Source: Deltaproteobacteria bacterium
GTDB taxonomy: Bacteria; Desulfobacterota; GWC2-55-46
DNA length: 64,000 bases
Reading direction: 5' to 3'
Assembly (NCBI GenBank): GCA_016219015.1
Contig: JACRCL010000026.1
Location: forward strand, 21,318-85,317
Below are positions 30,380-34,146 of the stretch, piece by piece. The position numbers and the translations under genes are program-made. A model generated the notes under the pieces. The model worked only from the letters and a program-made list of their open reading frames with translations. It made no database searches and was not told the origin of the DNA. Numbering within the stretch: the first letter of the stretch is position 1; every line of letters begins with the position of its first letter.

Positions 30380-32584
30380 CTAATGCTCCTTTTCGATATC
30401 GCAGAGAAGCCCTCTAAGCTGATACGAGCCGAAAGCCGGGTCATAAGGGGGCGCGTTGTCAGTAAGGACGTTAGCGTTCGATTCCCATACCCCGTAATCG
30501 GGCCCTTTCCTCTCCGGGAACCACCACCCGTGCTCCACGGCTACGACGTCCGGGTGTATATCCTCAGTAACAAGAGCCCTCATCCTTATGGAGCCGCGGG
30601 GGGACGAAACCCTTACCCAGTCGCCGCTCCCTATCCCGCGCTGTCCCGCCACCTTCGGGTGCATCTCGACTAAAGGGTCGGGATGGAGCTTCCTCAGGGA
30701 CTCTATCTGGCGGTGCTCGCTGTGGAAGAACTCAAGCCTCCTGCTCCCGGTTATGAGTATGTAAGGGTAATCCCTCGCCACATCCGGAGAGGCCGCCGGG
30801 CTTTCGGGCGGCTCCTTGAACGTCGGCAGCGCGCCGTAGCCCATGCGCTCAAGCGATTTGCAATACAATTCCACTTTCCTCGAAGGCGTCCTGAAGCCGT
30901 GCCTCTCGTATCTTCCGTACTCGTGGGCCGGGAACTCAAAGGCCCTCTTTTTCAACTCGTCAAAAGTAATCCCGAGGGGCTCGAGCTGGCAGTTCATGAC
31001 ATGGGTGAGGTCCTCCGAAGCCCCCGGCAGGCCGAGCCTCTTCGAGAGCTCGTCCATTATCCACTCGTCCTGCCTGCACTCCCCTGTCTGGGTTATCTTC
31101 TGCTGGGCCATGACCATGTTCTCGACTACCAGCGGATAGCCTATCACCTGATCGACCTCTGTCCAGAACGCGGCCGGCAGGACGTAGTCGGCCATGGCCG
31201 CGGTAGGGGTCATGAAGAGGTCGGTCACCACAAGGAGATCGAGGCGTTTAAGGCTCTCGAAGACCTCCCTTGAGTTCGCCACGCTCGTAAGAGTGTTGTT
31301 CCCGAACACAAGGAGCGCCCTTATCCTGTAAGGCTCGCCCGTCCTCATCGCCTTGAAGAGCGCCGGGATGTGCGCCGAAGGCATGAAGGCGCGCCACCCG
31401 CCGAGCAGTTTATAGGTATCCCCCCCGAGCCTTTTCCTGGCCGCGCCTTCGGGGAGCTTGTCTTTCAAAGTCGGGTAGCTCTTTATAATGTTCATCCCGA
31501 GTATGTCGCCGCCCGGGACGTCGATGTTCCCGGTTATGGCCCGGAGTACCGCTATGGCCCTCACCGTCTGGAGCGAGTTGTGGTTCTGCTCTATGCCGAG
31601 ACCCCATTCGAGTATCGCGGGCTTGTTGAGGGCGTACTTCCTCGCGGCCTCTATTATCTTCGACGCGGGGACCGTCGTTATCCCCTCGGCCCACTCAGGG
31701 GTAAACCCCTCTACGTGTTTCTTCAATTCCTCGAACCCGAAAGTCCACCTCTCCACGAACTCCCTGTCGTAGATGGCCTCGCTTATGATGACGTTTATCA
31801 TCGCGAGGGCGAGCGCCGCGTCCGTGCCCGGCCTTACGGCAAGCCAGAGGCCGCACCGTTTAGCGGTCTCCGTCCTCCTCGGGTCCACGGCAATGGAGGC
31901 GCACCCGTCGTCGAGCGCCCTTTTTACCGAGACCGCAAGCTCGCCGTCGGGGCCTGTAATAAGCGGGTTATGCCCCCAGAAGAGTATGCATTTGGGCCGG
32001 ACCGCGCCGTAGTAATCCCCTACTACGAACCCGCCGTAAGTCAGGTTGCTTACGGTTATCCTCGGTATGAAGCACTGCGCGAGGCCCGGCTCATACCAGT
32101 TGGGCGTGCCGAGGGCGTTCGCGAACCTTACGACGTGCATGTAGTGGTGCCTGCCCGTGCCCTGCCCGAGGGCGATGGACTCCGGGCCGGATTCAATCCT
32201 GAGCTTATCGAGCCTCTCGGCTATCTCCCCGAGGGCCGTCTCCCAGCTTATCTCCTCCCACTCGCCCTCGCCCCTGCCTTTTTTGCGCTTAAGCGGCTTT
32301 TTGAGCCTGTCCGGGTGGTTGGCTATCTCCGGCGAGAATACGCCCTTTACGCACATCCACCCTTTGCTCATGGGAGAGGCCGGGTCCCCCTTTACCTTCA
32401 CGACACGGCCGTCCTTTACATGGACATATACCCCGCACCCGCCGTGGCAGACCCTGCAGACGCTTCTGTAAACCTGTTCGCTTCCCGTCAAAGACCGCTC
32501 CATCCTGTATGTAATCCTCTTAGGGACTTTTTTCCTGCCAAGAGGAAGATATATCCCGGCAGTTTTATCCCCGAAAAGCCTCAT
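30380..32584 (-). CDS. Molybdopterin-dependent oxidoreductase (DMSO reductase family)
   Basis: 734 residues. 4Fe-4S motif CRVCHGGC...SKGWMCVKG (about 43-80), then the bis-MGD binding domains with RHHYMHVVRFANALGTPN, ILFWGHNPL, VDPRRTETAKRCGLWLAVRPGTDAALALAMINVI, VFGNNTL and the C-terminal cap VRVSSPRGSIRMRALVTEDIHPDVVAVEHGWWFPE. Cys in GLAQCFIPR lies where the Mo ligand is expected. No twin-arginine signal and no iron-sulfur or membrane subunit beside it, suggesting a soluble cytoplasmic enzyme. First gene of an operon with a phosphodiesterase, cysD and cysN. Substrate unknown. Confidence 0.88.
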   Translation of the reverse strand: MRLFGDKTAGIYLPLGRKKVPKRITYRMERSLTGSEQVYRSVCRVCHGGCGVYVHVKDGRVVKVKGDPASPMSKGWMCVKGVFSPEIANHPDRLKKPLKRKKGRGEGEWEEISWETALGEIAERLDKLRIESGPESIALGQGTGRHHYMHVVRFANALGTPNWYEPGLAQCFIPRITVSNLTYGGFVVGDYYGAVRPKCILFWGHNPLITGPDGELAVSVKRALDDGCASIAVDPRRTETAKRCGLWLAVRPGTDAALALAMINVIISEAIYDREFVERWTFGFEELKKHVEGFTPEWAEGITTVPASKIIEAARKYALNKPAILEWGLGIEQNHNSLQTVRAIAVLRAITGNIDVPGGDILGMNIIKSYPTLKDKLPEGAARKRLGGDTYKLLGGWRAFMPSAHIPALFKAMRTGEPYRIRALLVFGNNTLTSVANSREVFESLKRLDLLVVTDLFMTPTAAMADYVLPAAFWTEVDQVIGYPLVVENMVMAQQKITQTGECRQDEWIMDELSKRLGLPGASEDLTHVMNCQLEPLGITFDELKKRAFEFPAHEYGRYERHGFRTPSRKVELYCKSLERMGYGALPTFKEPPESPAASPDVARDYPYILITGSRRLEFFHSEHRQIESLRKLHPDPLVEMHPKVAGQRGIGSGDWVRVSSPRGSIRMRALVTEDIHPDVVAVEHGWWFPERKGPDYGVWESNANVLTDNAPPYDPAFGSYQLRGLLCDIEKEH

Positions 32585-32621: not shown

Positions 32622-32637
32622 TGGCACACCGATTGCA
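32622..32637 (+). promoter_or_regulatory. Sigma-54 (-24/-12) promoter
   Basis: TGGCAC-accga-TTGCA matches the sigma-54 consensus TGGCAC-N5-TTGCA exactly, with a T-rich run after it. The predicted start at about 32648 leaves a 70-base leader to the EF-hand gene. That leader contains AAAGGCCC...GGGCCTTT (about 32658-32690). Confidence 0.88.
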
Positions 32638-32720
32638 TTTACCTCAAGACATCTGGAAAGGCCCTTAGTAATATAAAACATCGGGCCTTTTAATTCAAAC
32701 CCTTTAAAGGAGGCAGAGAC

Positions 32721-32966
32721 ATGAGCGTAATCGGCTTCATAAGGAACCATTGGGTTCCAACCCCGCAACAGATGAACCAGTCATCGGCAAGGGTCATCAA
32801 AAATTCCGATTCAGATGGCGACAAGCTTTTGACCCAGTCCGAGCTCGGCATCAGGCCCGAAAACTTCTCGAAGGTCGATAAGAACAACGACCAGCTCGCG
32901 GACGTCAAGGAGCTTAACGCCTACACGCCGTTCAGGCAGATATTCAAGGAGGTGAAGGGCTCATAG
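32721..32966 (+). CDS. Small double EF-hand calcium-binding protein
   Basis: 81 residues, no signal peptide. Two 12-residue EF-hand loops: DSDGDKLLTQSE (about 31-42) and DKNNDQLADVKE (about 52-63). Both have Asp at 1, Asp/Asn at 3, Asp at 5 and Glu at 12, with spacing like a calmodulin-type pair. AGGAGG seven bases before ATG. Preceded by a consensus sigma-54 promoter. Calcium binding is a strong prediction; partner and role are unknown. Confidence 0.85.
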   Translation: MSVIGFIRNHWVPTPQQMNQSSARVIKNSDSDGDKLLTQSELGIRPENFSKVDKNNDQLADVKELNAYTPFRQIFKEVKGS

Positions 32967-32975
32967 CCCTTCACC
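32951..32975. terminator. Bidirectional hairpin between convergent genes
   Basis: GGTGAAGGGCT-cat-AGCCCTTCACC, a perfect 11-bp stem that overlaps the end of the EF-hand gene and stops one base before the PpiC stop codon. TCTTTTCC follows about a dozen bases later on the plus strand. Weak T-runs, but the position suits a shared terminator. Confidence 0.6.
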
Positions 32976-32976
32976 T

Positions 32977-34146
32977 TCACGGCGTCTTTTCCTCCGTCAG
33001 GATCAATACCTCTTTGGCCTTGGCCTGAACAGGGTAGGTATGCATGACCGGTCCGTCAAAGAGGATTTTTATGCTCTGGCCTGCCTTCAGGTCGTCGAAC
33101 CCGGCCCCGGCCTTCGCTTCCCTGCCCTTGAAGATGCGGGTCGCAGCGGTGACCCTTACCGAGGCCCTGCGGAAGCCGGGGTCCGCCCCGGTTATGTCCA
33201 TGAGGAACGTCCCGACGATACCTTCTCCCCCGTCTTTCGACACCGCAGTTATCTTCCCCTCGAAATAATCTTCCTTTTTCACCCCGGACGCTTTTTCCGC
33301 CTCGTCGCTTTGAAAGCTTACCTTGTATTTCGAGAACAACCCGGCCTCGGCGGCCTCGAACCCGGCCTTTTCCTTCTCCTGCTTTAGCAACCCGATAATA
33401 TCCGCCTTCGCTTCCGCGTATCCGAGGTCCCTTTCAGGGGACCTCTGCTCGACCTTGAAGACCACGAAGCCGTCGCGGACCCTGAGCACGGGGCTAACGT
33501 CCCCGTCCTTCAGGGCGAATACCGACTCTTCTATCTCAGGCACAAGCCTTCCGCGCGAGAATTGATCGACGCTTCCGGTCATATTGTCCTGAGAGAGGTT
33601 GGACAGGTCCTCCCCCTTCAAAAGCCTTTCGCGCGCATCTTTTGCCTTCGCCTCCTCTTTTTCCAATGCTTGCGGAGACGCCTCCGGGGCGACCCTTACG
33701 AGGACCGACTGCGTTTTCATCCTCTCCGGGACCTTGAGCTCATCCCGGTGCTCCCCGTAGTATTTCTTCGCCTCGTCCTCGGAGACGTTCACCTTCGAAA
33801 GGATGTGCTTTACGTACTCGGCCGCGAGCAGGGACTTTGTGAGCTCGGCTATCCGCGCCCGGAACTCTTTGTCCGTGTGCAGCCCGAGGGCGCGGGCCTC
33901 CTGCGAGAAGACCTCTATCCTTACCATTTCCTTTAACAGCTCTTCCCTGCCGCCCTCCTTGCTGAATACGTCCCTGTAGCCCTCGGGCAGGTTTTGAAGC
34001 CTCCTGTCGACGTCCGCGGAGGTGACCGCGTGAGAGCCTATTGTCGCCATCACGCCCTTTTCAGCGGCGAAGGCCGCGCCGGGCGAAAATATGCGCAGGA
34101 TAATCGCCGCCAGGATGACCGGGAAGAGCCGTTTTACCTGTACCAT
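32977..34146 (-). CDS. Secreted PpiC/SurA-type peptidyl-prolyl isomerase with extra C-terminal beta domain
   Basis: About 389 residues from ATG 34146 (GAGGTAAAG before it); the track's longer start reads through a repeat. Signal peptide VKRLFPVILAAIILRIFSPGAAFA then AEKG. SurA-like N-terminal chaperone part (TIGSHAVTSADVDRRLQNLPEGYRDVF), then a parvulin domain (LVRVAPEAS...GGSVDQ-like FSRGRLVPEIEESVFALKDGDVSPVLRVRDGFVVFKVEQ). The last 90 residues (YFEGKITAVSKDGGEGIVGTFLMDITG...VTAATRIF) form a separate OB-like domain resembling DUF3221/DUF5666. Probably a periplasmic outer-membrane protein chaperone. Confidence 0.83.
   Translation of the reverse strand: MVQVKRLFPVILAAIILRIFSPGAAFAAEKGVMATIGSHAVTSADVDRRLQNLPEGYRDVFSKEGGREELLKEMVRIEVFSQEARALGLHTDKEFRARIAELTKSLLAAEYVKHILSKVNVSEDEAKKYYGEHRDELKVPERMKTQSVLVRVAPEASPQALEKEEAKAKDARERLLKGEDLSNLSQDNMTGSVDQFSRGRLVPEIEESVFALKDGDVSPVLRVRDGFVVFKVEQRSPERDLGYAEAKADIIGLLKQEKEKAGFEAAEAGLFSKYKVSFQSDEAEKASGVKKEDYFEGKITAVSKDGGEGIVGTFLMDITGADPGFRRASVRVTAATRIFKGREAKAGAGFDDLKAGQSIKILFDGPVMHTYPVQAKAKEVLILTEEKTP

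Follow-up and report, generated by a model that had tools for sequence, protein, structure and literature searches.

Genomic context of the EF-hand gene

The window (the whole 64,000-nucleotide stretch of DNA that was analyzed) carries, at 32721-32966 on the forward strand, an open reading frame encoding a leaderless EF-hand-pair protein of 81 amino acids, with loops at residues 30-41 and 53-64. The frame begins 83 nt past a sigma-54 (-24/-12) promoter, TGGCACACCGATTGCA, located at 32622-32637 on the same strand. It possesses a strong GGAGG ribosome site, and its GC content by codon position (46/33/77%) is the coding signature of the window's genome. A foreign origin was considered and is not supported by composition, since the third-position GC equals that of the adjoining genes (77-89%), though the distribution of the gene is patchy.

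The placement of the gene between a molybdenum operon and a chaperone, described in an earlier note on this DNA, was borne out, with a divergent molybdopterin oxidoreductase operon on one side and a convergent PpiC/SurA-type isomerase gene (32977-34146) on the other. A link between the molybdenum operon and the EF-hand gene was also considered, with nothing found for it beyond their divergent position. The oxidoreductase, annotated to start at 32584, may begin at codon 28 (window 32503-32584), where a better-placed ribosome site, AAGAGGA, is read from the sequence; such a start would leave a divergent regulatory region of roughly 217 bp. Matches to the isomerase in 10 related genomes are just about 22-32% identical, and the locus may therefore be lineage-specific.

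Two inverted repeats accompany the gene. The 5' leader contains a perfect 8-bp repeat, AAAGGCCC-N18-GGGCCTTT, at 32657-32690 on the forward strand, which may serve as a leader element or an operator, or act as a weak terminator. A perfect 12-bp repeat surrounds the stop codon at 32950-32976, between the convergent genes, and is probably a terminator. No Rfam element or riboswitch was detected in the leaders of the EF-hand gene and its relatives, the only hit being an unrelated group II intron at one relative's locus (L102).

Sequence and predicted structure of the 81-residue protein

Both loops, DSDGDKLLTQSE and DKNNDQLADVKE, present the acidic ligands 1, 3, 5, and 12 of paired helix-loop-helix units. 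The earlier description of two complete EF-hand loops holds for these ligand positions, but not for the remainder of the motif, as Gly6 is missing from both loops (lysine in one, glutamine in the other) and loop 2 has alanine at position 8. The closest relatives also carry Ala8, and position 6 of their loop 1 is mostly lysine or glutamine. Individual database scores are low, with the protein falling below the Pfam cut-offs (EF-hand_1 15.8 bits against a cut-off of 25.4, E = 0.01) and the NCBIfam thresholds. Judged through its relatives rather than its own Pfam score, the protein clearly belongs to the EF-hand superfamily (PF13499/PF00036), and no signal peptide was found, both in agreement with the earlier classification.

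The structure predicted from 50 aligned units consists of a confident EF-hand core at residues 20-70 (pLDDT about 80-90) and a disordered start, with a mean pLDDT of 71.9. Structural neighbours in the PDB are almost all EF-hand proteins, with lanmodulin (8dq2) at the top, with none of the matches reaching E 0.001 (E-values of 0.15 and above). Lanmodulin shares the EF-hand pair and the short inter-loop linker. Proline at loop position 2 is a lanmodulin hallmark; the window loops, DSDGDK and DKNNDQ, lack it, and the window protein also differs in having a single pair and no signal peptide, scoring 14.6 bits against the lanmodulin family NF053806 (cut-off 135, E = 0.026). EfhP of Pseudomonas aeruginosa, CaBP of Caulobacter, and calsymin of Rhizobium are likewise bacterial EF-hand calcium-binding proteins, but differ from the window protein in architecture or localisation. 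We know of no sigma-54/FlbD control for these three, and to our knowledge most bacterial EF-hand proteins are orphans with no assigned pathway.

Distribution of the protein family

The family comprises leaderless proteins of EF-hand pairs with an 11-residue linker. Most relatives hold at least two EF-hand pairs and no signal peptide, and the window protein, a single unit, is the smallest member found. A characteristic start, M-S-[IV]-x-[GAS]-[IVLFM], occurs in 37 of 88 relatives versus 0 of 13 EF-hand proteins with signal peptides, and is fitted by the MSVIGF start of the window protein.

Scanning 84,980 genomes with the single protein yielded no confirmed homologue, while a profile scan gave five loci; named genomes with relatives are a MAG, bacterium V2_metabat1_scaf2bin.005, and Deltaproteobacteria bacterium RBG_13_43_22. 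Within the class, 2 of 63 genomes carry a relative, and the other genomes searched of the window's genus, family, and order carry none; a phylum-wide sample of 395 genomes gave relatives in 35 (E <= 1e-5). The statement that calcium sensors in bacteria are few proved inaccurate, given how common EF-hand proteins are; one family within the phylum, probably a Desulfovibrio-like one, has relatives in 87 of 247 genomes. No plasmid homologues were found, and no gene neighbourhood is conserved across genera, the EF-hand genes standing alone.

Sigma-54 promoter and genome-wide sites

The window's genome (2.24 Mb, 33 contigs, 97% complete) encodes a single copy of rpoN and 13 full enhancer-binding proteins (EBPs). 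The promoter of the EF-hand gene is an exact consensus match, displaying the -24 GG, the -12 GC, correct spacing, and orientation toward the gene. A sigma-54 pattern with at most one mismatch is expected by chance at 1 site per 64 kb, and the one-mismatch pattern is at background in this genome (33 sites versus 45 for the control); exact sites alone were therefore used. The exact pattern occurs at 12 sites genome-wide versus 0 for the reversed-pattern control, and all 12 are correctly oriented and lie just upstream of or at gene starts. The genes behind them, whose functions come partly from searches and otherwise from reading by eye, are flgF, fliL, fliK, lpxC, two response regulators, and a pilin-type gene, together with two secreted proteins, a DUF4388-like protein, a TPR protein, and the EF-hand gene itself. 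A chance promoter was rejected on this 12-to-0 excess, and with the matching gene placement the site at 32622-32637, recognized as exact in the earlier note, is very likely a real sigma-54 promoter.

Sigma-54 control across the family

Upstream regions of the relatives were scored for the best -24/-12 site within 300 nt before each predicted start, with a score of at least 18 as a pass; the weights were set by hand, and forward/reverse comparison, neighbour genes, and signal-peptide proteins served as controls. The relatives' starts are predictions of a rule based on ribosome sites, and a few are certainly wrong; L084, for one, likely begins at a GTG farther upstream. A passing site precedes 54 of 87 leaderless relatives versus 6 of the 146 genes that neighbour them at these loci, a positive outcome of the search for homologues with the same promoter. 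Clusters of sequences with a passing median score number 27 of 40 in the forward direction versus 1 of 40 in reverse, and no passing site precedes any of the 13 signal-peptide EF-hand proteins. The promoter mostly lies 40-145 nt before the relatives' frames, and the closest relative with upstream DNA (L051/L084) carries TGGCATTTATTGTGCA before its likely start. Sigma-54 control is thus a trait of the leaderless EF-hand family, and the earlier assignment of the window gene to sigma-54 is well supported.

Two subgroups show different upstream regions. The MQISSS-type subgroup (13 members) has no convincing sigma-54 site; its loci include L091, L093, L120-L123, L128, L129, L132, L161, and L163, and its genus has the site on its other EF-hand genes. 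A second subfamily, MRINP, starts with MR[IV]NPKxANLQY (L155, L157, L159, L162, L167, L174, L135) and conserves a sigma-54 site 48-50 nt ahead of that start, without an FlbD box. Its conserved upstream element, GGCAAGGG..TTTCTGCC, is unlike the FlbD box, and these genes are possibly driven by another activator.

FlbD-type boxes in the relatives and candidate boxes in the window

Footprints within genera revealed, in addition to the sigma-54 site, a GGCAA-N3-TTGCC inverted repeat some 40 nt downstream of it. Among the 87 upstream regions, 21 contain the pattern GGCA-N4/5-TGCC, versus 1.9 in shuffles; of the 19 among them with a good sigma-54 site, 16 have the box at +40 to +42. The wider box GG[AC]A-N4/5-T[GT]CC is found in 48 of 87 relatives versus 8 of 146 control genes, at preferred offsets of +40, +27/28, and -23/-24. 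Of the 62 regions with a sigma-54 site, 43 contain this box, versus 5 of the 25 without. In the closest relative (L051/L084), a GGAA-N5-TTCC box lies at -88 from the sigma-54 site. DVU1063, an FlbD-like flagellar regulator of Desulfovibrio vulgaris, binds GGCA-N4-TGCC, and the Caulobacter FlbD box is CCCGGCA-N5-TGCCGGG (PMC3333781). DVU1063 sites are often placed 40-70 bp past the sigma-54 promoter; a small number of all activator sites have this position, most of them belonging to DVU1063 (PMC4641369). The family resembles the FlbD/DVU1063 flagellar regulon of Caulobacter and D. vulgaris in its sigma-54 promoters and GGCA-N4/5-TGCC boxes, placed at +40 in many relatives, but the window's boxes differ in being degenerate and upstream of the promoter.

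The search for an upstream activator site, proposed in the earlier note, revealed a candidate that is probably present at 32522-32571, within the 5' end of the divergent oxidoreductase gene as annotated. Three candidate boxes were delineated on the forward strand. Box 1, AGGGACTTTTTTCCT (32522-32536), lies at -100, counted from where the sigma-54 site begins, and is the second-best matrix match; box 2, AGGAAGATATATCCC (32543-32557), at -79, is the best match and also fits the pattern GG[AC]A-N5-[AT][GT]CC; box 3, CGGCAGTTTTATCCC (32557-32571), at -65, is a pattern match resembling the fliL box CGGCAATAAAATCCC. Boxes 2 and 3 form a tandem 14-bp repeat, and boxes 1 and 2 are spaced by 21 bp, compared with 19-20 bp in the box pairs upstream of the flgB, flgF, and fliK sigma-54 promoters. 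The window's boxes are imperfect palindromes, with ATCC in place of TKCC.

The matrix was trained only on the six flgB/flgF/fliK boxes, with p values taken against random 165-bp stretches. The held-out EF-hand promoter, whose boxes are degenerate, gave p = 0.007 for the best and 0.003 for the second box, and the likewise held-out fliL and pseB promoters gave p = 0.010 and 0.005 (fliL) and p = 0.001 (pseB). Nine non-flagellar sigma-54 promoters ranged from p 0.05 to 0.94, none with p < 0.05. The box hypothesis was formed on the same data, its main independent support being this held-out test and the fixed +40 offset. The genome contains a gene for an FlbD/FlrC-like activator at C12:119516-120925, which adjoins flgB and carries the GAFTGA motif.

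Proposed role and alternative explanations

The best reading of the locus, and probably the correct one, is that the EF-hand gene belongs to the sigma-54 flagellar regulon. Sigma-54 RNA polymerase would transcribe this minimal single-unit gene from 32622-32637, with a flagellar-type EBP, most likely the FlbD/FlrC-like regulator at C12:119516-120925, presumably binding the boxes at 32522-32571. The protein would be made together with the flagellum, may bind calcium, and might either affect flagellar or motility functions from within the cytoplasm or leave the cell through a type III route, as its longer relatives with serine-rich starts may do. The regulated calcium response suggested in the earlier note finds no support in that form; the box type is flagellar (FlbD/FlrC), and expression with the flagellum is therefore likelier than expression in answer to calcium. 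The gene thus probably has a flagellar context and not that of a calcium response standing by itself. Against the flagellar reading, the window's boxes are imperfect, some relatives have sigma-54 sites without boxes, the MQISSS subgroup lacks the sigma-54 site, and the EF-hand gene lies away from the flagellar genes and is missing from the other genomes searched of its genus, family, and order.

In a competing view, the sigma-54 promoter is real but answers to another EBP, of stress, nutrient, or cell-surface type, leaving the gene unconnected with flagella. The presence of 13 full EBPs, the degeneracy of the window's boxes, and the box-free sigma-54 promoters of the MRINP relatives are consistent with it, but the held-out matrix test groups the EF-hand promoter with the flagellar ones and the relatives' boxes are enriched at a fixed offset; this view is rather unlikely, at about one chance in four. 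Much more improbable is a secreted type III effector-like calcium-binding protein of the XopAW kind (NF041410). XopAW has leaderless repeated EF-hands, 29 of 30 scanned family members match its model (best 8.9e-40), mostly weakly, many relatives have serine-rich leaderless N-termini, and the D. vulgaris type III secretion genes are also under sigma-54 (PMC4641369). The match is mostly generic EF-hand, however, with 0 of 10 individually scored members reaching the 120-bit cut-off (best 104.7), and the window protein lacks the serine-rich start and is unmatched at E <= 0.001 (E = 0.022, 14.5 bits).

The least probable account, with a very slim chance, holds that the sigma-54 transcript is mainly a small RNA ending at the hairpin at 32657-32690, with the open reading frame read from elsewhere. 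An 8-bp GC-rich stem followed by TTTTAATT directly past the promoter would suit such an RNA, but the loop spans 18 nt, the T run is short, the hairpin was not picked as a forward-strand terminator, and folding of the leader gave no significant stability (z = -1.33). The strong ribosome site downstream of the hairpin and the promoter's mostly retained distance from the relatives' frames also argue against it.

Returning to the flagellar regulon, there is a slightly better than even chance that the widespread leaderless EF-hand family as a whole represents an unrecognised output of the sigma-54/FlbD flagellar programme in the phylum, linking calcium to flagellar assembly or function. If so, its members would be calcium-responsive cytoplasmic modulators or calcium-binding flagellar-exported proteins, and a conserved promoter code, comprising a sigma-54 site and an FlbD box at a fixed offset, would place the whole family in the flagellar programme. 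In the literature library searched, no paper linking EF-hand proteins to the sigma-54 flagellar regulon was found, and two D. vulgaris regulome papers make no mention of EF-hand or calcium. In a Bradyrhizobium study, an EF-hand gene is listed among those down-regulated in an rpoN mutant (PMC13207237). The window's organism is probably uncultured, and the calcium-motility link would become directly testable in tractable Desulfovibrio.

A further observation concerns the gene for a PseB/FlmA-like sugar dehydratase (G000:C12:77796, L195), in which a perfect GGGAAATTTTTTCCC box accompanies a sigma-54-like site, a combination that suggests that the glycosylation genes at the pseB spot also belong to the flagellar regulon.
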